From assembly GCF_904831005.1 (NCBI RefSeq), contig NZ_LR882982.1:1798001-1862000 (forward strand): 64,000 nucleotides of DNA, in the 5' to 3' direction. Of the stretch, positions 37,871-55,021 are shown one piece after another. Made by a program: the position numbers and the translations under genes. The stretch comes from Microbacterium hydrocarbonoxydans (GTDB lineage: Bacteria; Actinomycetota; Actinomycetes; Actinomycetales; Microbacteriaceae). How positions within the stretch are numbered: the first letter of the stretch is position 1; every line of letters starts with the position of its first letter. The notes below the pieces were generated by a model. It did no database searches and had not been told where the DNA came from. It saw only the letters and a list, made by a program, of their open reading frames with translations.

Positions 37871-37887
37871 CGAGCGATCCGTGCTCG
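37871..37887 (-). promoter_or_regulatory. ACGGAU-loop hairpin at the 5' end of the fliP mRNA
   Basis: Minus strand CGAGC-ACGGATC-GCTCG: five pairs with GGA exposed in the loop, a CsrA-site form. It begins within about 1-5 bases of the expected transcript start and 50 bases before the fliP start codon. Confidence 0.65.
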
Positions 37888-37892
37888 GAGAC

Positions 37893-37922
37893 GACTATCG
37901 CGACAGCGGGCGCGTGCGTAAC
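37893..37922 (-). promoter_or_regulatory. Flagellar-type promoter of fliP-fliQ-fliR-flhB-flhA
   Basis: GTTAC (37922-37918), 14 bases, TCGCGATAGTC (37903-37893). Lies in the 122-base gap between fliO and fliP. Confidence 0.78.
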
Positions 37923-37944
37923 CCGGTCGTCGCCGGATGCGCGG

Positions 37945-38394
37945 TCAGGCGACCGAGCGCAGTGCCCGATCGACGATGTCGTTCGGCGGTTCCTCAGCGG
38001 CACCGGTCGAATCGTCGCCGATCTCGTCGTCATCCAGGGGTTCCTCGTCGAGCGGCGGCGCCTCCTGCGTGTCGACGACGCTGATGCCCTGTTCCGTGAC
38101 ACCCAGCACGTAGCGGATGCCTCCGAACTCCGCCACGACGAGCTGCGCCTTGCCCCCGATTCCCGAGCGGGCCACGACGGTGATCTTCTCGGGGCGGGGG
38201 CGGCTGCCGCCGGTGGTGGCGCTCTTCACAGGACGGAACTCGGTGAGCCGCGCGAGCTTCTTCGGCATCAGCCCCGCGAGCGGGCTCGTGCCCGCGTTCT
38301 GGCTCTTCTGCAGTCGCCGGCTGAGGAAGAGGAGCAGACCGAGCACCGCCGCGAGAGCGACGACCGCACGGACTGCGACGAGCAGGTCGTCCAC
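37945..38394 (-). CDS. fliO: Flagellar export protein FliO
   Basis: 149 residues, GTG start at 38394. One N-terminal membrane helix (VRAVVALAAVLGLLLFLSRRL), then the FliO block ITVVARSGIGGKAQLVVAEF and RYVLGVTEQGISVVD, and an acidic tail. It helps assemble the FliP ring. Two bases separate it from fliN. Confidence 0.88.
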   Translation of the reverse strand: MDDLLVAVRAVVALAAVLGLLLFLSRRLQKSQNAGTSPLAGLMPKKLARLTEFRPVKSATTGGSRPRPEKITVVARSGIGGKAQLVVAEFGGIRYVLGVTEQGISVVDTQEAPPLDEEPLDDDEIGDDSTGAAEEPPNDIVDRALRSVA

Positions 38395-38396
38395 CG

Positions 38397-39053
38397 TCAG
38401 ACCGTCTCGGCGCCGTCGAGGATGCGCTCGACGCGGATCGCGAAGTCTCCCTCTGCCACGACGACTGTGCCGTGTCCGATCAGACGACCGTTGAGTTTGA
38501 TGTCGGCCGGGGAGCCCGCGGCACGGTCCAGCTCGACGACGCGCCCGGGCTCGAGCGCGAGCACGTCGCGCACCGGCATCCGCGTGCGTCCGATCTCGAC
38601 CACCAGTTCCATCTCCACTCCGGCGATCCTGCTGAGCCGCTGCGGTCCCTGCGCCTGCGTCGTGGTGCCGCCGTCGACCCGCACGGACAGACGAGCTGCC
38701 ACCGCGCCGTCGGCATCGACCAGGTCGAAGACCTGCGTGCCCGGCTGCGCGAACGTCTCTGCCGCATCGACCGGTTCGGCGGCGCTGAGAGCGCCGGCAC
38801 CGAACACGGCGGCTGCCGACTCGAAGATCGGATGCAGTCGATCGGCGAGGCGCGCCGTGGGCGAGCCGTCGTCGAGCTGCGACGGATCGACGACCTGGAT
38901 CGCGATCCGCGCACCCGGTGTGCCCGTCACGGTCACCGCGACGGCCTCGCCGGTCGCACCGGGATCGGTCGACGGCGTGGGGATCACGGGGTAGCCGAAC
39001 GGCAGCCTGCCGGCAATCGCCGCAGCGACGGCGGTCTCGTGGAAGGTGCTCAT
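38397..39053 (-). CDS. fliN: Flagellar motor switch protein FliN, with N-terminal extension
   Basis: 218 residues. The C-terminal 75 residues are the SpoA/FliN domain: VEMELVVEIGRTRMPVRDVL, LEPGRVVELDRAAG, KLNGRLIGHGTVVVAEGDFA. The first 140 residues resemble the CheC-like/FliY-type extension only loosely (TGTPGARIAIQVVDPSQL) and lack obvious phosphatase motifs. It forms the C-ring with FliM and FliG. It shares one base with the fliM stop. Confidence 0.9.
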   Translation of the reverse strand: MSTFHETAVAAAIAGRLPFGYPVIPTPSTDPGATGEAVAVTVTGTPGARIAIQVVDPSQLDDGSPTARLADRLHPIFESAAAVFGAGALSAAEPVDAAETFAQPGTQVFDLVDADGAVAARLSVRVDGGTTTQAQGPQRLSRIAGVEMELVVEIGRTRMPVRDVLALEPGRVVELDRAAGSPADIKLNGRLIGHGTVVVAEGDFAIRVERILDGAETV

Positions 39054-39973
39054 CAGTGGGTCTCCTCGGTGATGGTCGTGATCTTGCAGGTCAGGCGCGA
39101 GCCGCGGCTGCCCGGGGTCGCCCGTGCGATCGGGATCTCCCCTGCGACGAGCTCGAACGGAGCGGTCTCGGCGTGGGGAAGCCGGAGCAGATCGCCCGGC
39201 GCGAGATCGAGCACTTCGCCCGTGCCGATCGTGAGCGGCGCGAGCCGGAGCGTGAGTTCGAGCGGGGTGCTGCGCACCTGATCCAGAGTCTGCCTGGGCG
39301 TGTGCTCGGCAGACGAGTCGGTGCCGGATGCGGCGAGGCGGTCGACCACCGTGGTCGCGGGCAGCATCACGGTGGCGGTGCTCTCGGCATCGCCCAGACG
39401 CATCGTGTAGCGGGCGACGATGACGGCCGCGGCCGCGGAGATCACCTGCATGTACTGCGGGTTGTAGTGCACAGCCGTGTACTTCGGCTCACTCGGCAGA
39501 AGAGTCCCCAAGCTCGCATACAGGTGCTCGAAGGTCCCTTCCATGATGTTGCGCACGAGCGCGAGCTCGATCGGGGTGAACGTGCGCGACTCGGGTGCCG
39601 ATGTGGTCCGCCCTCCCATCATCTGCACGACCCAGAGCAGGGCGCTGTCGAGTCCGAACTGCACGACGCAGGGCTCGTCGCGGCCGTCGAAGGCTCCCGT
39701 GACCATGGCGGTCGTGCTCGGCAGCGTCTCGGCATACTCCTCGTACGAGACCAGATCGACGCTCTCCAGCGCCAGGTGCGCGCGCACCCTGACCTTCGCC
39801 GTCAATTGGGACGACCAGAGACGCGCGAACGACTCGAACGCGGCTTCCAGATGACGGGTGCTCTCCCGTCCGAGCTGCGCAGGGCGGCTGAAGTCGTAGT
39901 CGGCATACCGCGTGGCGGGCTCATCCATCCGGACGGATGCGGTCATCGGAGTCTCCTCGACTGTGCTGGTCAT
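39053..39973 (-). CDS. fliM: Flagellar motor switch protein FliM
   Basis: 306 residues, ATG at 39973. The middle domain reads YEEYAETLPSTTAMVTGAFD, GLDSALLWVVQMMGG and PIELALVRNIMEGTFEHLY; the C-terminal SpoA domain ends the protein. The N-terminus lacks an evident LSQxEIDALL CheY-binding motif, which fits the absence of chemotaxis genes here. It follows motB by 6 bases, with no fliL between them. Confidence 0.9.
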   Translation of the reverse strand: MTSTVEETPMTASVRMDEPATRYADYDFSRPAQLGRESTRHLEAAFESFARLWSSQLTAKVRVRAHLALESVDLVSYEEYAETLPSTTAMVTGAFDGRDEPCVVQFGLDSALLWVVQMMGGRTTSAPESRTFTPIELALVRNIMEGTFEHLYASLGTLLPSEPKYTAVHYNPQYMQVISAAAAVIVARYTMRLGDAESTATVMLPATTVVDRLAASGTDSSAEHTPRQTLDQVRSTPLELTLRLAPLTIGTGEVLDLAPGDLLRLPHAETAPFELVAGEIPIARATPGSRGSRLTCKITTITEETH

Positions 39974-39979
39974 GTGATG

Positions 39980-40792
39980 TCAGCTCCCCTCGGCAGCGGC
40001 CGCGATCGCCGGGATCAGCGCTCGCACCTGCTCTTCCTCGCTCGATTCGACGACGATGTCGACACGACGGTTGCCTGCGAGCGCCTCGGGGCTGTCGCCG
40101 GGAACGAGTGGTCGCGTGTCGGAGAAGGCGGTCGCCTTCACGCGAGGTCCGCCGACTCCCTCGTGCTCGACGAGGAAGCGCGCGACCTGGGTGGCTCGTC
40201 CTCCCGACAGCTCCCAGTTCGTGGGATAGGGATCGGCCGAGACGCGATGATCGGCGTGCCCCTCGACGCTCACCTGATTGCCGACCGTGATCAGCACGTC
40301 GCCGATCGCGTCGAGCACCGCATCCGCTTTGCCAGAGAGCGACGTGCTGTTGTCGCCGAAGAAGGTCTCGGCGCCGATGAGGCCGACGTTGAGTCCGCGG
40401 TCGTCGATCACGAACTCGACGGCATCCTGCAGACCCTGCACCTGCAGCGCCGCGTGCATCCGCTCCTTCAGATCTTCGAGCGACTCGTACTCGACCTCGG
40501 CGCGGGCCGTGAGGTCGACGACGCCGTCTTCGTCCTGAAGCTCGGGTGGGATCACCATCCCCTCGGCCGTGTCGGCTCCGCCCTCGGTGCTCTCCTGGCC
40601 GAATCCGGTCGCCAGGCTGTTCGCGAGGAGCTCGAACTTGGTCTTGTCCACGTTGGAGACCGCGAACAGCACGATGAACAGACACATCAGCACGGTCACC
40701 ATGTCGGCGTACGACACCGCCCAGCGCTCATCGGGCTCGTCGTGCGCTTCGTCGTCGTGGCCCCGCGAGCGCGAGCGTCGACCCGTGCTCAC
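39980..40792 (-). CDS. motB: Flagellar stator protein MotB
   Basis: 270 residues, GTG at 40792. The single membrane helix follows WAVSYADMVTVLMCLFIVLF, whose Asp is the proton-channel residue. A plug/linker region and the OmpA-like peptidoglycan-binding domain follow (VSVEGHADHRVSADPYPTNW, LSGGRATQVARFL, NRRVDIVV). It overlaps motA by 4 bases. Confidence 0.94.
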   Translation of the reverse strand: MSTGRRSRSRGHDDEAHDEPDERWAVSYADMVTVLMCLFIVLFAVSNVDKTKFELLANSLATGFGQESTEGGADTAEGMVIPPELQDEDGVVDLTARAEVEYESLEDLKERMHAALQVQGLQDAVEFVIDDRGLNVGLIGAETFFGDNSTSLSGKADAVLDAIGDVLITVGNQVSVEGHADHRVSADPYPTNWELSGGRATQVARFLVEHEGVGGPRVKATAFSDTRPLVPGDSPEALAGNRRVDIVVESSEEEQVRALIPAIAAAAEGS

Positions 40793-41580
40793 GAGGACTC
40801 CTCCGCGGACAGCCCCTTCTTCTTCCCAGCCCTGGGCTTGACGGTCGACAGTGCCTCGAGCCGCTCCTGCAGAAGGTGCGGCGCGCTGCCGGCCTGGATC
40901 GCGAGCATGCCCTCGGACACCAGCGTCATGCGCTCGAGCTCGACGGCGCCGATTCGATTGAGGCGTCCCGCGATCGGGTTCCAGATGAAGTTCGCGGAGA
41001 GGAGTCCCCACAGCGTGGCGACGAATGCGGCCGCGATCATGGGTCCGAGGTGATCGGGCTCGTCGAGCTTCTCGAGCACGTGCGTGAGCGAGACGACCGT
41101 GCCGACGATGCCGATCGTCGGCGCATAGCCGCCCAGCGAGGCGAAGAACTTCGCGGCCACGCGGGTGCGCGACGACGTCGCGGTGATCTCGTCGTCCATC
41201 GTCATGCGCAGATCCTCGGCATCGGTGCCGTCGGCGAGTGCCTGCAGGGCCTGGCGCGTGAACGCATCGGGCGCGGAGTCGACCTCCTGCTCGAGGGAGA
41301 GCAGTCCTTCGCCGCGCGCCTTCTCGGCGTATCCGACGAGGAAGGGGATCACGGCCTCCGGGGTCGCCTTGGGCCCGCGCACCATTCGTCCGAGACTCTT
41401 GACCGCGATGATCGTGTCACGCATCGTGTGGCTCGCGATGCCGACGCCGATCGTCGAGCCGAGCACGAGGATCATCGGGGCCGGGATGAGCAGCGCCTGG
41501 AAGCTCGCGCCCTCCATCGTGATCATCGCGACGAGTGCGCCGAAGGCGAGGATGACCCCGATGATGAATGCGGGATCCAT
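40789..41580 (-). CDS. motA: Flagellar stator protein MotA
   Basis: 263 residues, ATG at 41580. Four membrane helices, the cytosolic loop with basic and acidic torque residues (RGEGLLSLEQEVDSAPDAF), and the signature GGYAPTIGIVGTVVSLTHVL are present. With MotB it forms the proton-driven stator. It follows the FlbD-like gene by 2 bases. Confidence 0.95.
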   Translation of the reverse strand: MDPAFIIGVILAFGALVAMITMEGASFQALLIPAPMILVLGSTIGVGIASHTMRDTIIAVKSLGRMVRGPKATPEAVIPFLVGYAEKARGEGLLSLEQEVDSAPDAFTRQALQALADGTDAEDLRMTMDDEITATSSRTRVAAKFFASLGGYAPTIGIVGTVVSLTHVLEKLDEPDHLGPMIAAAFVATLWGLLSANFIWNPIAGRLNRIGAVELERMTLVSEGMLAIQAGSAPHLLQERLEALSTVKPRAGKKKGLSAEESS

Positions 41581-41582
41581 CG

Positions 41583-41798
41583 TCACGCCCCCGTCTGAGC
41601 GGTCATGGCCTGTGCGGCATGCAGCACGCGGGCGCGATACGACACGATGAGGTCGACGACCGCGTCCAATGCCTCGGCGACGACGTACACATGGCCGTCG
41701 ATCATGTGCAGGGTCGTGTCGGGCGATTCCTGGATGCGTTCGATCAGGTCGGGGTTGACCGCGAACCGGGTGTGGTCGAGGCGGGTGACGGTGATCAT
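41583..41798 (-). CDS. flbD: FlbD family small flagellar protein
   Basis: 71 residues: MITVTRLDHTRFAVNPDLIE, then TTLHMIDGHVYVVAEALDAV, the complete FlbD domain (PF06289), common between flgE and motA in Gram-positive flagellar clusters. Function unclear; related to a Swrd protein that supports motor torque in Bacillus. It opens the flbD-motA-motB-fliM-fliN-fliO transcript. GGAG lies 9 bases before the ATG. Confidence 0.9.
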   Translation of the reverse strand: MITVTRLDHTRFAVNPDLIERIQESPDTTLHMIDGHVYVVAEALDAVVDLIVSYRARVLHAAQAMTAQTGA

Positions 41799-41838
41799 CG
41801 GATCGTCTCCGAGCGTGGGAGGAGGGGCAAGTCCGCCC

Positions 41839-41869
41839 GACTATCGCGACGCGGGACGGCTTCGGTAAC
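41839..41869 (-). promoter_or_regulatory. Flagellar-type promoter of flbD-motA-motB-fliM-fliN-fliO
   Basis: GTTAC (41869-41865), 15 bases, TCGCGATAGTC (41849-41839). No ACGGAU hairpin follows in this leader. Confidence 0.75.
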
Positions 41870-41878
41870 CGCAAGACG

Positions 41879-41909
41879 GAAGGCCCCCCGCGATACGCGG
41901 GGGGCCTTC
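41879..41909 (-). terminator. Terminator after flgE
   Basis: Perfect 14-base stem (41879-41892 with 41896-41909) with a 3-base loop, 25 bases after the flgE stop and just upstream of the flbD promoter. It ends the fliH-to-flgE transcript. Confidence 0.85.
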
Positions 41910-41934
41910 GTCGTCACCGGGACGGATCGATGGA

Positions 41935-43101
41935 TCAGCGCTTGAGCTGCGTGAGCTCCTGAAGCACCTCGTCACTCGTCGTGATGATGCGCGCATTCGC
42001 CTGGAAGCCGCGCTGTGCGACGATCAGATTGGTGAACTCCTGCGAGAGATCGACGTTGCTCATCTCCAGCGCACCCGACACGAGGTCGCCGAAGCCCGCC
42101 TGTCCGGGCTCGCCCATGCGCGCGGCCCCCGAGTTGACCGACGGGCGGTAGGCGCTTCCGCCGGCCTTCTCGAGTCCTTCCGGGTTCGCGAAGGTCGCCA
42201 TCGCGATCTTGCCGAGGGTCTGCGTGGCTCCGTTGCTGAACGTGCCGACGATCGATCCGTCTCCGGTGATGCTGTAGGACTTGAGCGTCCCGGCGGCCGC
42301 GCCGTCCTGATCGGTGACCGCCACGGTCGACAGGGTCGCGTAGCCGGTGACGGCGCTGAGGTCGACGCTGACGCCGCCGACGGCGAGAGTGAGACCCGGA
42401 GCCGCCTGCTCGCCGTTCGTGAAGGTCAGTGCGCCGGTGGCACCGCTGGTCGGCTCCTCGACATTCCACCCGGCGGCGGTCTTCGTGAACGTCAGGCTGA
42501 GGGTCGAGGGGGTTCCCTGCGCGTCGAAGATCGTGACGTCGCGCACCAGTTCGTCGCCCACTGCGGCGGTCGAGGGCAGGTTGCCCGTGACGGTCGCCGC
42601 GCTCGTCGCCCGCGCCGGCGACACGGCGTCGAGCGGAAGCACGATGTTGCCGACCGCCTGCCCGGCGTTGACCACCCCGTTCTGCGCCGACCAGCCCTGC
42701 ACCACGGCGCCGTCAGCGGTGACCATCTTGCCCGTCGGGTCGAAGGAGAACCCTCCGGCACGGGTGTAGAGGGTCTCGCCACCCGAGCTCACGGCGAAGA
42801 ATCCGTCGCCGGAGATCATCAGGTCGCCACCGCGACCGGTCGCCTGGGCCGAGCCCTGTGCGAAGTTCGTGCGCACACCGGCCACCTGCACGCCGAGGCC
42901 GACCTGGGCCGGGTTGCGCCCGCCCACCTCGTCGTCGGGGATGCCGGGGTTGCCGATGAGCTGTGACAGCGAGTCCTGGAACAGCACCGACGAGCCCTTG
43001 AAACCTGCGGTGTTGACGTTGGCGATGTTGTTGCCCGTGACGTCGAGCATGGTCTGGTGCGAACGGAGGCCGGAGATCCCGGAGTAGAGCGAGCGGAGCA
43101 T
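41935..43101 (-). CDS. flgE: Flagellar hook protein FlgE
   Basis: 388 residues. N-terminal rod/hook motif LYSGISGLRSHQTMLDVTGN with NIANVNTAGFKGS; C-terminal SNVDLSQEFTNLIVAQRGFQ with ANARIITTSDEVLQEL. It forms the hook polymer. FlgD, its cap, is encoded immediately upstream. The Shine-Dalgarno is AGGAAG. Confidence 0.94.
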   Translation of the reverse strand: MLRSLYSGISGLRSHQTMLDVTGNNIANVNTAGFKGSSVLFQDSLSQLIGNPGIPDDEVGGRNPAQVGLGVQVAGVRTNFAQGSAQATGRGGDLMISGDGFFAVSSGGETLYTRAGGFSFDPTGKMVTADGAVVQGWSAQNGVVNAGQAVGNIVLPLDAVSPARATSAATVTGNLPSTAAVGDELVRDVTIFDAQGTPSTLSLTFTKTAAGWNVEEPTSGATGALTFTNGEQAAPGLTLAVGGVSVDLSAVTGYATLSTVAVTDQDGAAAGTLKSYSITGDGSIVGTFSNGATQTLGKIAMATFANPEGLEKAGGSAYRPSVNSGAARMGEPGQAGFGDLVSGALEMSNVDLSQEFTNLIVAQRGFQANARIITTSDEVLQELTQLKR

Positions 43102-43133
43102 GTGTGTCTCTCTTCCTGTATGGGTATGCGAGG

Positions 43134-43616: not shown

Positions 43617-43628
43617 GGGTGTGTCCTC

Positions 43629-45924: not shown

Positions 45925-47243
45925 GGGGTGAGTCCTCCGAACTCGCTCGTGAGGGCAGCGAGTCGCTGCCAGGATTCGTCGACGGTGCTCAGATCGTCCA
46001 TCGGCTGGGTCAGGAACCGCGCGATCTCCGACTCATGCTCGATGGCGGAGTCGACGAGCGGGTTGGCACCCTGACGGTAGGCGCCGATGTCGATCAGATC
46101 GTTCGCGCTGCGGCGCGCGGCGAGCACGCTCCGCAGCATCACCGCCTGCTGACGCTGCTCGGGAGTCGTGATCTTCGAGACCACGCGCGACACGGAACCC
46201 AGAGCGTCCACGGCGGGGAAGTGCCCGCGGATCGCGAGAGATCGATCGAGCACCACGTGCCCGTCCAGGATCCCTCTCGCAGCGTCCGCGATCGGCTCGT
46301 TGTGGTCGTCGCCGTCGACGAGCACGGTGTAGAGGCCGGTGATCGACCCGGTCTCGGCGGTGCCTGCTCGTTCGAGGAGTCTCGCGAGCACCGAGAACGT
46401 CGACGGCGGATAGCCGCGCGTCGCCGGGGGTTCGCCAGCGCTGAGTCCGATCTCGCGCTGCGCCATCGCCACGCGTGTGAGCGAGTCCATCATGAGCACG
46501 ACATCGAGACCGTCGTCGCGGAACTGCTCCGCGATGCGCGTGGCGACGAAGGCCGACCGCAGACGCGCCATGGCCGGCTGATCAGAGGTCGCGACCACGA
46601 CCACCGAGCGCGCGAGACCTTCTTCCCCGAGGTCGTCCTCGAGGAACTCGCGCACCTCACGTCCGCGCTCGCCGACGAGTGCCATCACCGTGACATCGGC
46701 GGAGGATCCGCGAGCGATCATCGACATGAGCGAGGACTTGCCGACGCCCGATCCGGCGAACAGGCCCATGCGCTGACCGGAGCCGACCGGAGTCATCGTG
46801 TCGAGCACGCGCACGCCGAGACCGAGCTGACGATCGATCCGTCGTCGCGTGATGACGCTCGGGGCATCGTGATCGAGCGGCACGAGCGGTGCGGTGCTCG
46901 GCAGCGGGCCCTTGCCGTCGATCGGACGTCCGAGGCCGTCGAGAACACGCCCGAGCAGTCCCGGGCCGGTGGGCACCTGAAGCGGGGCACCGGCGTGGCG
47001 GACCCGCGCCCGCGCTGTGATGCCGTCGAGCCTGCCGAGCGGCATGCAGCGCGCCGCGGCGCCGTCGAGAGCGACGATCTCCGCCTCGACGGAACGCCCG
47101 GCTGATGTGTCGATGCGCACTCGATCGCCTACCGCGCCGGCCACGCCGCGCACCTCGACGCCGAGGCCCCGAACGGCCTGCACGACGCCGGTGTGCTGGG
47201 GACGGGCGGCGGCCATGGCTCGCGTCCACGAAGTCGTGCTCAC
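45921..47243 (-). CDS. fliI: Flagellum-specific export ATPase FliI
   Basis: 440 residues, GTG at 47243. F1-ATPase-beta-like: Walker A GLFAGSGVGKSSLMSMIARG, the conserved GERGREVREFLEDDLG, Walker B VVLMMDSLTRVAMAQREIGL, and GEPPATRGYPPSTFSVL. It powers export. It overlaps fliH by 4 bases. Confidence 0.96.
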   Translation of the reverse strand: MSTTSWTRAMAAARPQHTGVVQAVRGLGVEVRGVAGAVGDRVRIDTSAGRSVEAEIVALDGAAARCMPLGRLDGITARARVRHAGAPLQVPTGPGLLGRVLDGLGRPIDGKGPLPSTAPLVPLDHDAPSVITRRRIDRQLGLGVRVLDTMTPVGSGQRMGLFAGSGVGKSSLMSMIARGSSADVTVMALVGERGREVREFLEDDLGEEGLARSVVVVATSDQPAMARLRSAFVATRIAEQFRDDGLDVVLMMDSLTRVAMAQREIGLSAGEPPATRGYPPSTFSVLARLLERAGTAETGSITGLYTVLVDGDDHNEPIADAARGILDGHVVLDRSLAIRGHFPAVDALGSVSRVVSKITTPEQRQQAVMLRSVLAARRSANDLIDIGAYRQGANPLVDSAIEHESEIARFLTQPMDDLSTVDESWQRLAALTSEFGGLTP

Positions 47244-47878
47244 GAGATCCGCCCGTCCGGCTCGGCCTCGCGTCGAAGCTGCGCCTGCGCACGCCGCAGA
47301 GCGTGCACGATCCGGGTGTCGACCTCTCCGTCTTCGACCTCGATCAGCGCGCCGCCGGGATCCACCGCAGAGGATGCGACCACCTCGATGCCCGCCATGA
47401 GCCCTGAGAGGTCGTCGTCCGCCTCGACGACCGGCGCGTCCTGCTCGCTCAGCAGCACCCTGGTCCAGCGGTCGACCGGAGCTTCGGCGACGGCTCTGCG
47501 CACCGCGTGGGCGGCGGCACGAGCGGGGTCGGCGAGCTCGGTCCCGAGAATCGTCTCGGCGAGCTCGACCGCCAACTGCTCGATGGTCTCGGTGGCGACC
47601 GCGCGTACGCTCTCGGTCCTCGCGTCGAGCGCATCCCGGGCGGCATCGAGAGCGCGCAGCGCGGAGCCTCGCTGATGCAGATAGGTCTCGGTGAGCTCGC
47701 GCTCGCGTCTCTGGGTGAGATCCGCCTGATGCGCGGCCTCATCTCGTGCCCGTCGCACTCCCTCGGCGTAGCCGTCGGCATAGCCCCGCGCTCGGGCCTG
47801 CTCCGTCTCGGCCCGGAGGTCGAGCGGCGGCTCGCCCACGCGCGGCATCACCAGAGGAGTGAAGGCGGAATCGAGCAC
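47240..47878 (-). CDS. fliH: Flagellar export regulator FliH
   Basis: 212 residues, GTG at 47878. An N-terminal Pro-rich start, the Gly/Ala-spaced helix ARARGYADGYAEGVRRARDE, a coiled coil, and the C-terminal FliI-binding domain (ELAETILGTELADPARAAAH) identify it. The start was set downstream of the flagellar promoter at 47950, which would lie inside any longer reading. Confidence 0.85.
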   Translation of the reverse strand: MLDSAFTPLVMPRVGEPPLDLRAETEQARARGYADGYAEGVRRARDEAAHQADLTQRRERELTETYLHQRGSALRALDAARDALDARTESVRAVATETIEQLAVELAETILGTELADPARAAAHAVRRAVAEAPVDRWTRVLLSEQDAPVVEADDDLSGLMAGIEVVASSAVDPGGALIEVEDGEVDTRIVHALRRAQAQLRREAEPDGRIS

Positions 47879-47905: not shown

Positions 47906-47920
47906 GGCCTGTCCGTGGCC
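47906..47920 (-). promoter_or_regulatory. Second ACGGA-loop hairpin in the fliH leader
   Basis: Minus strand GGCC-ACGGACA-GGCC: four GC pairs with GGA in the loop, 9 bases after the first hairpin and 27 bases before the fliH start. Confidence 0.5.
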
Positions 47921-47928: not shown

Positions 47929-47943
47929 GAGCGATCCGTGCTC
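47929..47943 (-). promoter_or_regulatory. ACGGAU-loop hairpin at the 5' end of the fliH mRNA
   Basis: Minus strand GAGC-ACGGATC-GCTC, same loop as at fliP. It begins at about the predicted transcript start. Confidence 0.6.
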
Positions 47944-47949
47944 CCCCGG

Positions 47950-47980
47950 CACTATCGCGACATCGCGACGGTGGCGTAAC
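47950..47980 (-). promoter_or_regulatory. Flagellar-type promoter of fliH-fliI-fliJ-fliK-flgD-flgE
   Basis: GTTAC (47980-47976), 15 bases, TCGCGATAGTG (47960-47950), in the 131-base gap between fliG and fliH. Confidence 0.75.
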
Positions 47981-48009
47981 CACCGCGGCGTCTCGCACCG
48001 GCGAAGGGA

Positions 48010-49095: not shown

Positions 49096-50738
49096 ACCCT
49101 CGCCTCGTCCATCAGGCTGGCCAGGGCGACCGCGATCGCCTCGGGCTCGCGCTTCGCCAGATCGTCGATCTCACGGCGACGACGTTCGACGAGCATCTGG
49201 TCGGGCTCGCGCTCGTCGTCGAGGTCGGGATCGACGTCGGCCGAGGGCAGGAGCGTGGTCGGTGCGGGCAGCGGGATCGCATCGGCGTCCTTCAGCCCGC
49301 GGAGTGACTTCAGCTTCTGCTCCTCGCTCTCGGTCACGGTCGCGAAGTACTCGATCGGGCCGTCCTCGGTGTACATGACGCGGCGCTTGAGCTTGCGCCG
49401 CACGGCCAGGAAGACCACCAGGATGATCACGGCGAGAAGAATGGATCCGCCGATGATCGCTGCGCGCAGCAGCTCCTGCTGCATCTGAGCGGCCTGCTCG
49501 GCTTCCGCCGCCTGCAGAGCGGTCTGAGCGGCGGTCGCGCCGGTCTCGCTGAACTCGACGAACTCCACGGCGATCGCGTCGCCGCGCTCGAGATCGATCC
49601 CCGCGGCCGAGGCCACCAGCGTCTCGACCTGTGCGGCGGTCACCCCCGTGACAGCACCGCGGTTGAGGGCGATGCTCACGGTCTGGCGGGTGACCTCTCC
49701 GGCGGGCGTGACGGTCTTCTCGGTCGACTTGTTGACCGCGTTGTCGCGCGAGGTCTCCTCGAACTCGTACGCGCCGTCGCCGGCAGCTCCGTTCGGCACG
49801 GCGATGTTGTCGGGACCCAGCACTCCGGTGCCGCCGGCCTGGCCGCCCGTGTACGTCTCGGTCTTGGTCTGCTCCGACGCACTGAGTGCGCCTTCCGGTG
49901 CGGAGTACGTCTCGTCCATGCGCTCGGACGTCGAGTTCGCGACGTCTGCAGAGACCGTCACCGTGGCGTTGCCGGGACCCACGATCGTCTCGAGCATCGC
50001 GCTCACCGACGCTGCGACCTTGGCCTCGTGCTCGGTGGCCTGCTTGGAGGAGGTGCCCGTGAGACCCGCGCCGACCGCCGAGAGCACCGCGCCGTTCTGG
50101 TCCGTGACCGCGACGTCCTCCGGAGTCATCCCGGGCACCGCCGCGCTGGTGAGGTGCACGATCGCCTCGATCTTCTCGTCGCTCAGCGTCGACCCATTGC
50201 GGGTCTTCACGAACACGGATGCCGTCGGGCTCTGGCGCTCCGAGACGAACACGCTCTCCTCTGGGATGGCCAGCTGCACGGAGGCTGCGCTGATGCCGTC
50301 CATCGATCCGATCGTGCTCGCCAGCTCCCCCTCGATGGCGCGCTTGTACGTCACGGACTGCTGGAACTCGCTCGCGGTCACGCCCATCTTGTCGAGCAGC
50401 GTGTAGCCCTCGCTCGAGTCGCCGGGCAGCCCGGCCGATGCGGCGGCGAGACGCTGCGCGTACACCTGATCGTCGGGCACGAGGATCGTCGCACCGCCCT
50501 CGGCGAGCTCGTATGAGACCCCGGCGGTCTTGAGCTGGTCGACGACCGCCGAGGCGTCCCCCGCACTCAGACCGGTGAACAGCGGACTCATCTGCGGTCG
50601 CGCGAGCCAGGAGCCGAGTGCGATCGCCCCCATGACCAGGAGCGCCACACCGATGAGGGCGATGGTGCGCTGGGCGAGGGTGAAGCCTGAGACGACCTGC
50701 TTCGCGCGGTCGAAGTATCCCGTGAGCATCTTCGGCAT
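49092..50738 (-). CDS. fliF: Flagellar MS-ring protein FliF
   Basis: 548 residues, ATG at 50738. Two membrane helices bracket a large periplasm-side region: TIALIGVALLVMGAIALGSW near residue 25 and IIGGSILLAVIILVVFLAVR near residue 440. The YscJ-like block (LFTGLSAGDASAVVDQLKTA, GVSYELAEGGATILVPDD) and the FliF C-terminal domain with the FliG-binding tail are visible. It founds basal-body assembly. Confidence 0.95.
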   Translation of the reverse strand: MPKMLTGYFDRAKQVVSGFTLAQRTIALIGVALLVMGAIALGSWLARPQMSPLFTGLSAGDASAVVDQLKTAGVSYELAEGGATILVPDDQVYAQRLAAASAGLPGDSSEGYTLLDKMGVTASEFQQSVTYKRAIEGELASTIGSMDGISAASVQLAIPEESVFVSERQSPTASVFVKTRNGSTLSDEKIEAIVHLTSAAVPGMTPEDVAVTDQNGAVLSAVGAGLTGTSSKQATEHEAKVAASVSAMLETIVGPGNATVTVSADVANSTSERMDETYSAPEGALSASEQTKTETYTGGQAGGTGVLGPDNIAVPNGAAGDGAYEFEETSRDNAVNKSTEKTVTPAGEVTRQTVSIALNRGAVTGVTAAQVETLVASAAGIDLERGDAIAVEFVEFSETGATAAQTALQAAEAEQAAQMQQELLRAAIIGGSILLAVIILVVFLAVRRKLKRRVMYTEDGPIEYFATVTESEEQKLKSLRGLKDADAIPLPAPTTLLPSADVDPDLDDEREPDQMLVERRRREIDDLAKREPEAIAVALASLMDEARV

Positions 50739-50741
50739 CGC

Positions 50742-51059
50742 TTAGGCCTGCATCCTCATGATCTCGTTGAAGGCGGAGACGCTCCGGTCGCGCACCGCGA
50801 CGACCAGATCGAGTGTGACCGAGGCGCGCGACGAGGCGATCATCGCCTGGTGGATGTCCTGCAGATCACCCGTGACCGCCTGCACGGCGAGCTCGTTCGA
50901 CGAGGCCTGCAGCTGCTGCAGATTCTCCATGGCTCCGGTCATGGAGTTCGCGAAGGCCCCGCCGCCTGTGCCGGCAGCGGCGGTGGTGTCGCCCTCGAAG
51001 CTGAGCGCCGAGAGCGGGCTCACCCCCGCGGCCGAGATTCCCTCGATCGGGGTGCTCAT
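50742..51059 (-). CDS. fliE: Flagellar rod-MS-ring junction protein FliE
   Basis: 105 residues, ATG at 51059, sharing one base with the flgC stop. Helical C-terminus typical of FliE: NELAVQAVTGDLQDIHQAMI and SRASVTLDLVVAVRDRSVSA with FNEIMRMQ. Confidence 0.92.
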   Translation of the reverse strand: MSTPIEGISAAGVSPLSALSFEGDTTAAAGTGGGAFANSMTGAMENLQQLQASSNELAVQAVTGDLQDIHQAMIASSRASVTLDLVVAVRDRSVSAFNEIMRMQA

Positions 51060-51451
51060 CAGTTGCGTCCGATCTGCAGGGCTGCCTCGTACGTCGTCTT
51101 GGCTCGATCGACCACCGCGGCGTTCGCCTCGTAGCCTCGCTGCGCGACGATGAGCATGCTCATCTGATCGCCGAGTTCGACGTTCGGATACTGCACGTAC
51201 CCGTCGGCGTCGGCATAGGGGTGTTCGGGGTCGTGCACGCGCTTGGCCTCGGCCTCGGATTCCGCGACCCCCGTGACGTAGACGCCGGGGCTCTCGGTGC
51301 CCGCCTGCACGGTGATGAGCTTCTCGCGGAACGCCTCTTCGCCCGCGGGCGTCGCGGTGTTCGCATTGGCGATGTTGTCGCTCAGCGCGTCGAGCCACTT
51401 GCGGTGCGCGGTGAGGCCGGTGCCGGCGATGCCGATGGCGTCGAACGTCAT
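51059..51451 (-). CDS. flgC: Flagellar proximal rod protein FlgC
   Basis: 130 residues, ATG at 51451. FDAIGIAGTGLTAHRKWLDA with LSDNIANANTATPAGEEAFR is the rod motif; the C-terminal MSMLIVAQRGYEANAAVVDR is canonical. Overlaps flgB by 4 bases. Confidence 0.93.
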   Translation of the reverse strand: MTFDAIGIAGTGLTAHRKWLDALSDNIANANTATPAGEEAFREKLITVQAGTESPGVYVTGVAESEAEAKRVHDPEHPYADADGYVQYPNVELGDQMSMLIVAQRGYEANAAVVDRAKTTYEAALQIGRN

Positions 51452-51795
51452 GCCGTGGCCTGACCGATCGCCTTGGAGATCGAGGCCGCCTGACCGCCGA
51501 TGGCCTGGCTCGCGAACTGGAAGCGCAGCACGGTGTCGATGTTCGACAGCGTCTCGGTGTCGAGGTTCACGTTGTTGCCGTTGATGCGCGTCGGCTCCAG
51601 CGACCGCTCGACCGTGGGTGCGACGGCGCCCGATCCGGCCGAGACGGCGGAGCGGAGCTCGTCTTCGAACTGCACGCGCTTGGCCTGGTAACCGGGCGTG
51701 TTGACGTTGGCGATGTTCTCTGCGATCGAACGCTGGCGCAGCGCCAGACCGTCGAGCGCGCTGATCAGCGCGGAAGAGGTAACGGATTCGAGCAC
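51448..51795 (-). CDS. flgB: Flagellar proximal rod protein FlgB
   Basis: 115 residues, GTG start at 51795 behind CGGAG. LDGLALRQRSIAENIANVNT then PGYQAKRVQFEDELRSA is the FlgB signature. First gene of the flgB-flgC-fliE-fliF-fliG unit. Confidence 0.93.
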   Translation of the reverse strand: MLESVTSSALISALDGLALRQRSIAENIANVNTPGYQAKRVQFEDELRSAVSAGSGAVAPTVERSLEPTRINGNNVNLDTETLSNIDTVLRFQFASQAIGGQAASISKAIGQATA

Positions 51796-51843
51796 GGGGG
51801 CACTCCGGACGTTGATGGAGAAGCCGATCCCTGGCCAATCGTC

Positions 51844-51858
51844 GAGCTATCCGTGCTC
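51844..51858 (-). promoter_or_regulatory. ACGGAU-loop hairpin at the 5' end of the flgB mRNA
   Basis: Minus strand GAGC-ACGGATA-GCTC with an added wobble pair below. It starts at about the predicted transcript start, 48 bases before the flgB GTG. Confidence 0.6.
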
Positions 51859-51864
51859 AGGTGC

Positions 51865-51894
51865 GACTATCGCGACACGCGGCGCGGGCGTAAC
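51865..51894 (-). promoter_or_regulatory. Flagellar-type promoter of flgB-flgC-fliE-fliF-fliG
   Basis: GTTAC (51894-51890), 14 bases, TCGCGATAGTC (51875-51865). Confidence 0.78.
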
Positions 51895-51903
51895 CCGGCC
51901 CGC

Positions 51904-52182
51904 TCAGCCTTCGACGTCGAGATATGCCGGGGTGTCGGTGGGACTCGTCGGCACACGGCGCAGCGCTGCGATCTCGCGTGCCACGTTGGCACGTGAGGCC
52001 ATGAGGCCGCCGATCATCAGCTGCTGCCGCGCGCGCACCGCCTCGGCCCGCTCACGCAGCTGCTCGGGAACCGGACCTGACGGCCGCTCGAAGTCGGCGG
52101 GGGTCATCTGATCGTCTGCGGCATCGAGGGCGCGCTCGAACTGGTCGAGCACCGCCAGCCAGGCTGCGAGGTTGTCGGGCAC
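51904..52182 (-). CDS. Small helical protein after fliS, FliT-like by position
   Basis: 92 residues, GTG at 52182. Helical and charged (WLAVLDQFERALDAADDQMT; EQLRERAEAVRARQQLMIGG). The fliD-fliS-X order is where fliT stands in many bacteria, and the size fits a FliT-type export chaperone, but the sequence alone does not prove it. It starts 6 bases after fliS. Confidence 0.65.
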   Translation of the reverse strand: MPDNLAAWLAVLDQFERALDAADDQMTPADFERPSGPVPEQLRERAEAVRARQQLMIGGLMASRANVAREIAALRRVPTSPTDTPAYLDVEG

Positions 52183-52188
52183 GGGAGA

Positions 52189-52602
52189 TCAGGCCGTGGC
52201 CGAGCCGACGGCCTGAGACGCCTCGGCGGTCGCCGCAGCGGCCTCGCGCCAGGCCTCACGCAGAGGGGCGACGATCTCGCGGCACTCCGCCGTGATCGCG
52301 CGGTCGCGCTCGATGTTCGCGGCGATCAGGCGCCCGGTGAGATACGTGTACACGCCGCGCAGGTCATCCGCACCGTCCCAGACGTCGGTGAGCGACCCGC
52401 TCAGCTCGGCGACGATCCACTGCGCGTGCGTCAGGTGCGTGCCCGCCGCGGCCCAGTCGCCAGCATCCTGCGAGACGCCGGCGCGGTCGACATCGACCAG
52501 GAGCCGGTCGTAGAGGAGCACCAGCAGGCGTTCGGGCGAGGCCGACGCGACCTGCTGCTCGAGATACTGCTGCTTGGCACGGTCGAGAGAGGTGATGGGC
52601 AT
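52189..52602 (-). CDS. fliS: Flagellin export chaperone FliS
   Basis: 137 residues from the ATG at 52602, chosen because GGAG lies 8-11 bases upstream (ATG 52617 would add 5). YLEQQVASASPERLLVLLYD is the FliS signature, followed by helices with HAQWIVAELSGSLTD and VYTYLTGRLIAANIERDR. It keeps flagellin unfolded for export. Confidence 0.9.
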   Translation of the reverse strand: MPITSLDRAKQQYLEQQVASASPERLLVLLYDRLLVDVDRAGVSQDAGDWAAAGTHLTHAQWIVAELSGSLTDVWDGADDLRGVYTYLTGRLIAANIERDRAITAECREIVAPLREAWREAAAATAEASQAVGSATA

Positions 52603-52641
52603 GAGTGCGGACTCCAATGCGGATTCGGGTGTGCTGTCGGC

Positions 52642-54009
52642 TCAGGACGACGAGGAGTTGGGCGTCATCGCCGCGAGCTGACCCGTGAGCCAGCTGGACT
52701 GGGACTGCAGCTTCGACAGCTGCACCTCGAGCTGTGCGTAGGTGCGCTCGAGCGTGGCCCGACGCTGCTCGAGCCTGATGTCCCACCGCTCGACCTGCGT
52801 CTTGAGCGTCTTGACCTCGGTCTCCTGACCGGTGATGCGTGCCGTGAGCAGCCCGTCGTACTTGTCGGAGTACTGGGTGGTCACTGCGTGGAGCCTGCCG
52901 GCGACGGACGAGAACAGCTCCTGCGTCGCCTCAGGGTCGTCGGCGACGGCCGCCGCGAACTTCTCGGCATCGAACGAGAGCACGCCCTTCTCGTTGATCG
53001 TGATGCCGATCGTCGAGGGCGAGATGCCGTTGATCGGATGCTGCACCGCGTTGGCCAGCGCCCCCCGCAGGTTGCGCACGGTGCTGTCCCCCGTGAAGAC
53101 CCCCAGCGTCGTCGCTTCTCCGACTCCCCCGACCGTCGCCTTCGAACCGTTGTCGATCCGCGTCAGCAGTGCCGCGATCTCCTTCACGAACGACTCGGCC
53201 GTGGTCGTCTGCTTCTTCTGGTCGCGCGCGACCGTGATGGTGACGGGGTCGGTGCTGGGCTTCGTGATCGTGACGTCGATGCCCTCCCCCACGCTGATCG
53301 TGTTGCTGGCGCTGGTCAGAGCCTGCTCGGCTGCCGTGCCGGCGAAGAGACGCACCCTCGCGTCCGCACCCTGAGTGATCAGGGCGGCCCCGGGTTCTGC
53401 GCCGAGGTCGCTCGCGGTTCCCGCAGCGAGTTCCGCCGCACTGCCGCGATGGATCGTGAACTCGCCCGCGGCGCCGGTCTCGATCGAGGTCAGCTGGATG
53501 CGCGAGAGCGGCTTGCCGTCTGCGTCGGTCCCGGCAGGGACCACTGTCGCCGTGACGCCGGCTTTGGCGTTGTTGATGGCCTTCGCGAGATCCTGCGGAC
53601 CCGCACCGGTCGGGGTGATCTCGACGGGTTCGCCGTCGGTGCCCACCACGGTGAAGGTGCCGCCCCACGCCGAGGCGCCTGCGGCGGCGGTCACGACGGA
53701 GTGTGCGGTGGCGACGGCGTCGACGACGATGTCGGTCGAGAAGGCGGTGGCCGTGGCCCCGGCAGTGACTGTGACGCTCTCTGACGAGGATGCGGCGGTG
53801 AACGAGGCCAGAGATGTGGGACCTGCCGCGGTCTTGGCCTTGGCGACCAGGTCCTGCAGCGTCGTGTTCAGCGACTGCAGATTCGTGATGATCGAGTTGC
53901 GATCGGCGATCTTGTTGGTGATCAGCGTCTTGGGGATCGCCGACACGTCCATCAGCGCCTTGATGAGCTCTTCGGTCTTGAGCCCTGATACGAGTCCGTC
54001 GAGTTTCAT
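52642..54009 (-). CDS. fliD: Flagellar filament cap protein FliD
   Basis: 455 residues, ATG at 54009. N-terminal LDGLVSGLKTEELIKALMDV with NLQSLNTTLQDLVAKAK is canonical; the middle has FLG-hook-IN-like repeats (SNTISVGEGIDVTITKPS), and the C-terminal coiled coil ends WLTGQLAAMTPNS. It caps the growing filament. Confidence 0.93.
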   Translation of the reverse strand: MKLDGLVSGLKTEELIKALMDVSAIPKTLITNKIADRNSIITNLQSLNTTLQDLVAKAKTAAGPTSLASFTAASSSESVTVTAGATATAFSTDIVVDAVATAHSVVTAAAGASAWGGTFTVVGTDGEPVEITPTGAGPQDLAKAINNAKAGVTATVVPAGTDADGKPLSRIQLTSIETGAAGEFTIHRGSAAELAAGTASDLGAEPGAALITQGADARVRLFAGTAAEQALTSASNTISVGEGIDVTITKPSTDPVTITVARDQKKQTTTAESFVKEIAALLTRIDNGSKATVGGVGEATTLGVFTGDSTVRNLRGALANAVQHPINGISPSTIGITINEKGVLSFDAEKFAAAVADDPEATQELFSSVAGRLHAVTTQYSDKYDGLLTARITGQETEVKTLKTQVERWDIRLEQRRATLERTYAQLEVQLSKLQSQSSWLTGQLAAMTPNSSSS

Positions 54010-54053
54010 CCCGGTCGTCTTCCGTGCGATGCGGTCAAGGTGTCCTACAGGAA

Positions 54054-54087
54054 GGCGCCCGAACGGAGGTGACTCCGCCCGGGCGCC
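54054..54087 (-). terminator. Terminator after fliC
   Basis: GGCGCCCG stem, 2x2 internal loop, CGGAG/CTCCG stem and a 4-base loop, followed on the minus strand by TTCCTGT. Lies in the 101-base gap between fliC and fliD, so fliC probably has a separate abundant transcript. Confidence 0.75.
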
Positions 54088-54110
54088 CCGTGCGCCTCAG
54101 GCGCAGCGGC

Positions 54111-54971
54111 TCAACGGAGCAGCTGCAGGACGCCCTGGCCCGACTGGTTGGCCTGCGCGAGCATGGCGGTGCCGGCCTGCTGCAGGATGTTCGAGGCGGT
54201 GTACTTGACCATCTCGGCAGCCATGTCGGTGTCGGCGATGCGGCTCTTCGCAGCGGCCAGGTTCTCGGCCGAGACCTGCAGCGAGTTGATCGTCGACTCG
54301 AAGCGGTTCTGCACCGCACCGAGGTCGGCGCGGGCCGACGAGACGCTCTTGATGGCGGTGTCGACCGTGGTGATGGTGGCAGCCGCCACCGTCGGGTCGG
54401 CGAAGCCGTCGGTCGTCACGATGTCGGTGCGCAGCTGCGTGGCGAGATCCTTGATGTTCGCGCTGCTCAGGTCGACGGTGATCTGGCTGGATGCAGAACC
54501 GTCGGCGCCCACCTGGAAGCTGAGGGTGCCGTTGCCGGTGGCTCCGGCGGTACCGTCGAGCAGCTGGATGCCGTTGAAGTTGGCGCTGTCGGCGATGCGC
54601 TCGAGCTCGTCGACCAGCTGCGTCACCTCGGTGGTGATCGCGGTGCGCGAGTCGGCGTTGTTCGAGTCGTTACCGGCCTGGACGGCGAGGTCACGCACGC
54701 GCTGCAGGATCGAGTGGACCTCGGTGAGCGCGCCTTCTGCGGTCTGGATGACCGAGATGCCGTCCTGAGCGTTGCGGGCTGCGACGTTCAGGCCGTTGAC
54801 CTGCGAACGCAGACCCTCGGAGATGGCGAGACCGGCGGCGTCATCGGCTGCGCGGTTGATGCGCAGACCGCTCGAGAGCTTCTCGAGCGACTTCGAGACG
54901 TCGTTCTGGTTGACGGACAGGTTGCGGTACGCGTTGAGTGCACCGACGTTGGTTGCGATCTGAAGACCCAT
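54111..54971 (-). CDS. fliC: Flagellin FliC
   Basis: 286 residues, ATG at 54971 with GGAGGA 7 bases upstream. The N-terminal D0/D1 helices (IATNVGALNAYRNLSVNQND, SLEKLSSGLRINRAADDAAG) and the C-terminal D1/D0 (LGAVQNRFESTINSLQVSAE, ASNILQQAGTAMLAQANQSG) are well conserved; the central domain is short, so the filament surface should be simple. Expression is likely set by the flagellar sigma factor and by CsrA at two leader sites. Confidence 0.97.
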   Translation of the reverse strand: MGLQIATNVGALNAYRNLSVNQNDVSKSLEKLSSGLRINRAADDAAGLAISEGLRSQVNGLNVAARNAQDGISVIQTAEGALTEVHSILQRVRDLAVQAGNDSNNADSRTAITTEVTQLVDELERIADSANFNGIQLLDGTAGATGNGTLSFQVGADGSASSQITVDLSSANIKDLATQLRTDIVTTDGFADPTVAAATITTVDTAIKSVSSARADLGAVQNRFESTINSLQVSAENLAAAKSRIADTDMAAEMVKYTASNILQQAGTAMLAQANQSGQGVLQLLR

Positions 54972-55003
54972 GAGAATTCCTCCGTGGTTATGGGGTTGGA
55001 CGC

Positions 55004-55021
55004 GGGCCCATCCGTGGGCCC
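55004..55021 (-). promoter_or_regulatory. ACGGAU-loop hairpin in the fliC leader
   Basis: GGGCCC-ACGGAT-GGGCCC: six GC pairs and a hexaloop with GGA, starting about 3 bases after the predicted transcript start. A second ACGGAGG overlaps the Shine-Dalgarno 33 bases further on. Confidence 0.7.

Follow-up and report, generated by a model that had tools for sequence, protein, structure and literature searches.

Hairpins that present A-N-GGA in their loops stand in the leaders of two flagellar mRNAs of the class Actinomycetes, that of the flagellin gene fliC and that of flgB, the head of the rod and MS-ring operon. We consider it reasonably probable that these hairpins are binding sites of the CsrA protein encoded in the same flagellar island, within a flagellar RNA regulon of the class; judged by their sequence, the leaders themselves are very likely to be bound by CsrA. 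A preliminary description of one locus had predicted CsrA-type sites on flagellin and basal-body mRNAs and had named conservation of the loops in relatives as a test. Conservation proved deep: 82/83 genomes carry one or more GGA-loop hairpins in the flgB leader, and 74/74 fliC leaders have an ANGGA site that can fold into a hexaloop hairpin, which speaks for such sites.

Hairpins, promoters, and copied leaders in the window

The window is the whole stretch of DNA that was analyzed, 64,000 nucleotides from Microbacterium hydrocarbonoxydans. The genes that matter here are as follows.

29017..29445, minus strand: fliW, proposed CsrA antagonist (PF02623, 3.5e-18)
32359..32607, minus strand: csrA, 82 aa, proposed binding protein (PF02599, E 1.3e-22, single hit in genome)
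36971..37822, minus strand: fliP, heads the export-gate operon running towards csrA
47240..47878, minus strand: fliH, heads the export and hook operon
51448..51795, minus strand: flgB, heads the rod and MS-ring operon
54111..54971, minus strand: fliC, flagellin
55078..55935, minus strand: FliA-type sigma factor, adjoining fliC upstream (Sigma70 r2, r3, r4)

The sites and shapes in their leaders are listed next.

55004..55021, minus strand: fliC leader hairpin GGGCCC[ACGGAU]GGGCCC, proposed high-affinity CsrA site 1
54981..54985, minus strand: fliC Shine-Dalgarno ACGGA, proposed CsrA site 2 (start codon at 54971)
51844..51858, minus strand: flgB leader hairpin 1, GAGC[ACGGAUA]GCUC
51822..51836, minus strand: flgB leader hairpin 2, GGCC[AGGGAUC]GGCU, aligned across 37 genomes
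47929..47943, minus strand: fliH leader hairpin 1, GAGC[ACGGAUC]GCUC
47906..47920, minus strand: fliH leader hairpin 2, GGCC[ACGGACA]GGCC
41825..41838, minus strand: flbD leader, weak hairpin GGGC[GGACUU]GCCC, doubtful site
37871..37887, minus strand: fliP leader hairpin 1, CGAGC[ACGGAUC]GCUCG
37849..37863, minus strand: fliP leader hairpin 2, GGCU[ACGGAUC]GGCC

All five hairpins first reported were located on the minus strand exactly where the preliminary description had placed them, and csrA and fliW, recognized by their PF02599 and PF02623 matches, lie in the same island as it had said. Its picture of one loop on different stems holds for fliC against the rest, but in flgB, fliH, and fliP the stem GAGC/GCUC of hairpin 1 is shared. 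Likewise, the second hairpin that it had noticed at fliH is present, but is not limited to that gene, as flgB and fliP have one too. The loops measure 7 nt at flgB, fliH, and fliP, and the 6-nt ACGGAU occurs at fliC only. The 7-nt loops were counted against the CsrA reading, given that RsmE affinity is tenfold lower with two nucleotides inserted between hexaloop and stem (PMC4005645; this and the other papers cited by PMC number are drawn on in excerpt).

Aligned pairwise, the three leaders with GAGC stems are identical at 70/96, 75/99, and 70/96 positions (73-76%), with z scores of 11.7, 15.5, and 11.1 against 60 single-base shuffles. On this alignment, the flgB, fliH, and fliP leaders are paralogous, all three being copies of a single cassette of promoter and leader. 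The window therefore offers two independent cases and not the four originally proposed, although hairpins do stand at all four mRNAs. When the 3.72-Mb genome was searched with a covariance model built on the two flgB hairpins (150 of the 4090 candidates from the first look were scored), the flgB, fliH, and fliP leaders had E values between 4e-12 and 8e-12, and the next-best match had E 0.02.

Sigma-28-like promoters sit just upstream of the hairpins:

55031..55059, minus strand: fliC promoter, GTTAC-N13-GTCGCGAATGT
51866..51894, minus strand: flgB promoter, GTTAC-N13-GTCGCGATAGT
47951..47980, minus strand: fliH promoter, GTTAC-N14-GTCGCGATAGT
37894..37922, minus strand: fliP promoter, GTTAC-N13-GTCGCGATAGT

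Since these promoters lie upstream at a fixed distance, the predicted transcript starts are not 3' of the hairpins, a point on which the first proposal had depended. The flbD and flgN genes also have promoters of this type, and no GGA loop was present in the flgN leader. One promoter type is common to an early gene (flgB) and a late one (fliC). The hexamer ACGGAT by itself shows no enrichment across the window (42 observed, 39.4 expected), so that hairpin and position carry the case. Rfam covariance models found nothing up to E 1 between window positions 27000 and 57000, and in nine relatives' loci the lone match to a known RNA family, an implausible microRNA below the gathering score, was rejected.

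Conservation at fliC and flgB

The 39 relatives in the family were hand-chosen from 114 other csrA-positive genomes, mostly one per genus and with long contigs; of the 40 family genomes, three (G031, G035, G379) yielded no flgB and four no fliC start. From 48 further flagellates, the class set for flgB took 46 (G264 and G437, which have no FliE, were left out) and that for fliC 38, omitting eight with weak hook-protein-like flagellin hits and two without hits. Within the family, csrA occurs in 115/398 genomes, and all 115 bear fliP. It was also found in 43/48 of the flagellates beyond the family; the five without it (G264, G299, G388, G420, G437) have fragmented or incomplete genomes and so cannot serve as a negative control, and G264 is also without FliE and flagellin hits. 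FliW was detected in 80/80 flagellated actinobacteria and FlgM in 0/80, while the search controls gave signal. In 40 CsrA proteins, residues L4 and R6 are present in 40/40 and R44 in 38/40, all three being found in the CsrA of the window. These proteins are 76-127 aa long with a long C-terminus, the part that contacts FliW in Bacillus (PMC7652899).

At fliC, the site picked was the best-pairing ANGGA between -90 and -28, and 54/74 leaders hold exactly one ANGGA between -85 and -28. A strict hairpin, defined as four unbroken Watson-Crick pairs, forms in 55/74. Stem covariation was 0.457 versus 0.148 (sd 0.016), with double changes in 7/8 pairs, one pick (G008) having been replaced by hand beforehand; the arms vary jointly in many ways around an unchanged, non-palindromic ANGGA. 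An ANGGA also lies no more than 22 nt from the fliC start in 36/36 family and 33/38 class genes, the figure for other genes being 94/929, and the spacing from loop to Shine-Dalgarno GGA is 23-44 nt in 69 leaders. The covariation that the preliminary description had expected around a fixed loop is therefore strong at fliC, but within the family it is weak at flgB, where double changes are absent from hairpin 2.

Two or more GGA-loop hairpins stand in the flgB leader of 68/83 genomes, compared with a mean of 1.54 and a maximum of 4 in 50 shuffle sets, and GGA ranks first among the 64 possible loop triplets; G427 is the sole genome of the 83 with no GGA hairpin there. The GAGC/GCUC arms of hairpin 1 are retained in 73/83, beyond what pairing needs. 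Between families, the arms of hairpin 2 differ (GGCC, CGCC, GCCG, GCCA) and its loop ranges from 5 to 8 nt. In the family, the distance from -10 to the first GGA is tight (sd 1.1, range 16-19; promoter found in 35/37), and the two GGAs are 21-28 nt apart in 37/37 leaders (two hairpin pairs, G072 and G076, were set by hand). The second GGA keeps a much less constant distance from the start (sd 5.8, range 33-60, median 41), and at class level the sd of this distance is 14.3, part of which reflects annotation, as start codons are uncurated. An ANGGA in the Shine-Dalgarno region is found in 6/37 family and 12/46 class leaders. Taken with the promoter positions, this arrangement points to a pair of flgB sites that occupy the mRNA's 5' end, away from the Shine-Dalgarno.

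Folded as free RNAs, whole leaders show no excess stability over shuffles (z -0.21 to 0.43). By partition function, pair probability exceeds 0.5 in 44/57 cases at fliC, and at flgB in 38/72 for hairpin 1 and 26/72 for hairpin 2. The minimum-energy fold of the window's flgB leader leaves out its hairpins, and the pair probability of its own hairpin 2 is 0.0.

Other flagellar leaders and wider scans

Counted without preselection in 189 leaders of six flagellar genes, the commonest loop starts were ACGGA (56), ATGGA (22), and CAGGA (9); the second loop base may be A, C, G, or T, and A-N-GGA is constant. Fourteen control patterns for the loop were all but absent from flgB and fliC, apart from small counts: AGGNA (8/37) and TNCCT (3) at flgB, and TNCCT (3), ANGGG (2), and TNGGA (2) in 36 fliC leaders. 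The flbD leaders hold a strict ANGGA hairpin in 8/40 and CNGGA in 8/40, and the remaining flagellar genes hold 0-2 strict ANGGA hairpins each. An ANGGA stands at the Shine-Dalgarno of csrA itself in only 5/40.

An ancient origin of the fliH and fliP leaders was rejected, as 1/22 and 1/20 family starts were positive, both of them the window's own. The fliH copy was present in 19/80 named loci (the best 80 of 190 matches), all within the 27 nearest to the window; model R1 had been trained on 37 sequences, some of them among the 80 loci so scored. The fliH and fliP sites are accordingly young, limited to part of Microbacterium.

Across the phylum, the flgB model matched 42/296 genomes at E <=0.01, with no match in the class flagellates G427 and G445. 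Of the 29 relatives' loci that were read, four stand among flagellar genes, upstream of flhB (G980, G912, G892) or between fliN and fliP (G852). The remainder, including the best one (G905, 3.6e-5), look chance-like and were rejected as true sites, so the E-values of the scan are over-optimistic. Any extension of the leaders outside the class would draw on gene context alone.

Proposed control by CsrA and its alternatives

Flagellar order is usually ascribed to sigma-28 and its exported inhibitor FlgM. Here, all main flagellar operons would use the same sigma-28-like promoter, with ordering added on the RNA. The A-N-GGA loops match the A(N)GGAX consensus of CsrA and RsmE, and the site spacings at flgB and fliC fall within the bridging range of CsrA, which is 10-63 nt between sites and best above 18 (PMC7652899). 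At fliC, a CsrA dimer on the hexaloop hairpin would bridge to the Shine-Dalgarno ANGGA about 30 nt downstream and block ribosomes, and FliW, freed by flagellin export, would strip CsrA off the mRNA; by analogy with Bacillus hag, repression of fliC by CsrA is probable. At flgB, and in its fliH and fliP copies, a single dimer would clamp both hairpins, 21-28 nt apart. Such a clamp would lie at the extreme 5' end, away from the Shine-Dalgarno, and most likely would shield that end, stabilizing the basal-body mRNA, as in the E. coli flhDC leader, where CsrA guards the 5' end from RNase E (PMC7652899). We regard the chances that CsrA stabilizes rather than represses flgB as evenly balanced, and binding is better supported than the sign of its effect there. 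The full scheme, in which one CsrA silences flagellin mRNA and protects basal-body mRNA, FliW flips both, one sigma factor suffices with no FlgM, and cassette copying adds operons (fliH and fliP in Microbacterium), is put forward tentatively. If CsrA does mark the two mRNAs and its effects on them are opposite, one RNA-binding protein takes the place of a checkpoint in transcription. The two leaders are compact (~60 nt) and deeply conserved, and the copies at fliH and fliP would be a case of a regulatory RNA cassette that spreads by duplication within one gene cluster. The leader data suggest that flagellated actinobacteria control flagellum building at the RNA level.

It is possible, though we doubt it, that CsrA represses flgB, fliH, and fliP too, by blocking ribosome approach or destabilizing the mRNA, as a global brake released by FliW. 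Repression is the commonest CsrA outcome (PMC7652899), the second GGA of flgB precedes the start codon by only about 41 nt in most of the family, and csrA of the window is downstream of the fliP leader, so that a brake would give feedback; however, the spacing of the flgB sites is fixed to the promoter and not to the start codon, and the flgB Shine-Dalgarno seldom holds an ANGGA. That the flgB-type leaders serve as CsrA sponges, setting a threshold for fliC while hardly affecting how they themselves are translated, is unlikely. The flaA mRNA itself titrates CsrA in C. jejuni (PMC4894983), each transcript offers two sites, and the cassette has multiplied in Microbacterium, but from the RsmE data the 7-nt loops should bind CsrA more weakly than the fliC hexaloop, and basal-body mRNAs are expected to be scarcer than flagellin mRNA. 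Very improbable is a role as DNA operators, with a transcription factor on a palindrome just 3' of the promoter: a fixed distance from -10, weak RNA folding, and GAGC-GCTC arms kept like a read-out DNA site would suit it, but a protein that recognizes the arms should tolerate neither their joint changes at fliC, where ANGGA stays, nor the variation between families in the arms and loop size of flgB hairpin 2. Hardly credible are plain 5' stabilizer stem-loops with no protein partner, which would fit the placement at the predicted 5' end but would not preserve a loop in which GGA tops every triplet.

The proposed CsrA control has partial counterparts elsewhere. In Bacillus subtilis, csrA and fliW also lie beside flagellar genes, and hag, like fliC here, has an upstream GGA site and a second at the Shine-Dalgarno (PMC7652899). 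Unlike that system, the Actinomycetes have a class-wide second candidate target, the flgB operon with its two-hairpin leader, and FlgM was not detected (0/80). The E. coli flhDC mRNA resembles what is proposed for flgB in having two CsrA sites near the 5' end, off the Shine-Dalgarno, and in starting flagellum building (PMC7652899), but the target here would be the rod and MS-ring operon itself and no master regulator, and carries two regular hairpins; stabilization is proposed by analogy only. In Campylobacter jejuni, flaA carries two stem-loops with ANGGA, one of which covers the ribosome site, with compensatory changes in relatives, and several further flagellar mRNAs are CsrA-bound; in contrast, flgB showed no enrichment with CsrA there (1.6-fold), and several CsrA-bound, low-affinity flagellar mRNAs were unresponsive to csrA deletion (excerpts of PMC4894983). 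Our search of open-licence papers found none that describes a CsrA leader for flgB in actinobacteria. A 2008 proposal for Kineococcus radiotolerans had already pointed out csrA in motility islands of actinobacteria, had noted a 9/12 match of the flagellin Shine-Dalgarno region to hag BS2, and had proposed hag-like control; as excerpted, it describes neither a hairpin nor any leader, that of flgB included, and offers no comparative test (PMC2587704). Finally, the RsmE-bound stem-loop at the ribosome site of Pseudomonas hcnA is not flagellar, and the flgB, fliH, and fliP loops are one nucleotide longer than its loop, but its ACGGAU hexaloop is identical to that of fliC here (PMC4005645).

Promoters and hairpin leaders of the flagellar island

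The window belongs to a 3.72-Mb single-contig genome, and its best FliF matches in named genomes are from Microbacterium, up to 97% identical (among 80 loci, the best of 190 matches). The flagellar genes are arranged as follows.

Minus strand, start of the island: FliA-type sigma factor, fliC, fliD, fliS, then flgB-flgC-fliE-fliF-fliG
Minus strand, after fliG: fliH-fliI-fliJ-...-fliK-flgD-flgE
Minus strand, after flgE: flbD-motA-motB-...-fliM-fliN-fliO, then fliP-fliR-flhB-flhA-csrA
Minus strand, end of the island: flgN-flgK-flgL-fliW

Six island promoters, which we take to be akin to sigma-28 promoters, share GTTAC-N13/14-GTCGCGATAGT, with GTCGCGAATGT in the fliC variant. Exact matches with N13 spacing number four genome-wide, all inside the island (fliC, flgB, fliP, and flgN), while the fliH and flbD promoters have N14 spacing. 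Transcripts from promoters of this kind are expected to start about 7 nt past the -10 element, and by this rule the first hairpin of the flgB-type leader (hairpin 1) would begin at approximately +1. The flgN operon (32297-32325 and downstream) has the same promoter type, and its leader folds as GACGGG-ATGA-CCCGTC, with a loop lacking GGA; genome G762 has a similar hairpin, GACGGGCAATCCCGTC, in its flgN leader. Besides the FliA-type sigma factor adjoining fliC, the window encodes another, with sigma-70 regions 2, 3, and 4, just past fliW (26933-27739).

The preliminary description placed CsrA-type hairpins, with differing stems, on the fliC, flgB, fliH, and fliP mRNAs. Inspection of the window sequence confirmed their positions, with two hairpins per leader at flgB, fliH, and fliP, and a single one at fliC plus the Shine-Dalgarno sequence ACGGAGG. 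The stems, however, do not all differ: the first stems are identical among flgB, fliH, and fliP. Their promoter-leader units share 73-76% of 96-99 aligned bases (z 11-15; all other pairs among the six promoters, z ≤6) and are most readily explained as copies of a single cassette. Among named loci (the best 80 of 190 matches), 19/80 have the fliH copy, every one within the 27 nearest relatives; the fliP copy is present in G762, and none was seen in genomes G164 or G769. Given these restricted distributions, the putative ancestral targets are flgB and fliC.

Conservation of the flgB and fliC leaders

In all 37 genomes of the Microbacteriaceae set (36 relatives and the window), a hairpin bearing the CsrA loop motif ANGGA on four unbroken Watson-Crick pairs (the strict rule) lies upstream of flgB. 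Other flagellar genes yielded 0-2 such hairpins each, save fliC (25/36) and flbD (8/40). The wider set of 83 flgB leaders added 46 genomes picked by fliP and fliE searches, 42 of these outside the family; at least one GGA-loop hairpin was found in 82/83, the single exception being G427, and at least two in 68/83. In 50 sets of approximately dinucleotide-shuffled leaders the corresponding counts averaged 14.3 and 1.54 and never exceeded 21 and 4. The two hairpins are spaced 19-31 nt apart in 74/83. A covariance model built from the 37 family leaders recovered the flgB leader in 79 of 80 named fliF loci (the best 80 of 190 matches); the 80th, L285, has just 209 bases of upstream sequence.

Hairpin 1 is GAGC[..GGA..]GCTC in 73/83 genomes, its arms being kept beyond what base pairing alone requires. 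Hairpin 2 stems vary between groups (GGCC/GGCC in 38 of the 74 paired leaders, GCCG/CGGC in 11, CGCC/GGCG in 8, GCCA/TGGC in 6, the rest in fewer), and all four letters occur at loop base N. For the flgB stems, covariation within the family was modest (0.134 vs 0.090, sd 0.010), and hairpin 2 had no double change.

For fliC, all 74 leaders (36 family, 38 others) have an ANGGA near -48 capable of forming a hexaloop hairpin. Of its seven closest pairs, all are Watson-Crick in 15 leaders, six in 34, five in 21, and four in 4; under the strict rule GGA is looped in 55/74, the top score among all triplets. Stem covariation was strong (0.457 vs 0.148 shuffled, sd 0.016), with double changes in 7/8 pairs (39/500 shuffles reach 7). 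Paired cells made up 84.3%, compared with 64.2% when shuffled, a percentage favored because sites were picked for pairing among ANGGA matches. Counting against the hairpins, leader folding was no better than that of shuffled sequences. Predicted pair probability was high for fliC, exceeding 0.5 in 44/57 leaders, and middling for the two flgB hairpins, at 38/72 and 26/72; for flgB hairpin 2 of the window itself, no unaided folding is predicted.

Two layouts and their predicted effects

At fliC, a second ANGGA lies at the Shine-Dalgarno sequence in 36/36 family and 33/38 other leaders, versus 94/929 other gene starts; across 69 leaders, its median separation from the GGA of the loop is 30 nt. 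This is the layout of hag, a hairpin site with a second ANGGA over the Shine-Dalgarno. The flgB leader instead resembles flhDC, with sites tied to the promoter and a Shine-Dalgarno mostly free of ANGGA (present in 6/37 family and 12/46 class leaders). The spacing between the -10 element and the sites is tight (family sd 1.1). The spacing down to the start codon varies more, with sd 5.8 in the family and sd 14.3 in the class, where uncurated start codons account for part of the spread. Intermediate between the two is flbD, with a Shine-Dalgarno ANGGA in 20/40 and a strict upstream hairpin in few. From the differing layouts we infer that CsrA would act oppositely, repressing fliC and clamping the 5' end at flgB, the sign at flgB being the weakest point.

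The ACGGAU hexaloop is that of the solved RsmE structure, and 7-nt loops should be weaker CsrA binders than hexaloops, judging from that report (PMC4005645). According to sections of a C. jejuni study (PMC4894983), CsrA-bound flagellar mRNAs apart from flaA were unchanged by csrA deletion, and flgB mRNA was not enriched with CsrA. The fliC half was anticipated by a 2008 proposal (PMC2587704) that CsrA controls flagellin in the actinobacterium Kineococcus, made on the strength of a single Shine-Dalgarno match. Searches among open-licence papers turned up no description of the double-hairpin leader of flgB, its conservation across the class, or its copies at fliH and fliP, and no Rfam family was found to match the leaders of the window and the relatives' loci.

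CsrA, FliW, FlgM, and other lineages

The csrA gene is the sole PF02599 match in the genome. In the family, csrA occurs in 115/398 genomes and fliP in 118/398, including every csrA genome; the three with fliP and without csrA are 63%, 68%, and 95% complete. Of 48 further flagellates, 43 have csrA, the missing cases being fragmented or incomplete genomes. Among 40 CsrA proteins, L4 and R6 are invariant and R44, an RNA-binding residue (PMC7652899, in part), is present in 38. FliW was found in 80/80 flagellated genomes tested. FlgM (PF04316) was detected in 0/80 flagellated class genomes, although FliA-type promoters and sigma factors are present in them. As a control, the search recovered FlgM from three known genomes, E. 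coli and B. subtilis among them; a highly divergent FlgM could escape it.

In the window lineage csrA (32359-32607) is downstream of the fliP leader (37871-37887), so it may belong to an operon headed by CsrA-type hairpins, making a feedback loop possible. Its Shine-Dalgarno region reads GCC[ACGGAG]GGC. Between flhA and csrA (32608-32697) lies an A+T-rich stretch with the palindrome TTCCACTC...GAGTGGAA, which may be a sign of a separate csrA promoter.

Matches of the covariance model in other classes are mostly chance; 4 of 29 relatives' loci examined fall among flagellar genes, which suggests, without proving, that other lineages place the same kind of leader before other flagellar operons. 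In those loci (L229, L232, L236, and L250), double GGA hairpins near base 1500 precede flhB in three genomes; in the fourth they fall between fliN and fliP.
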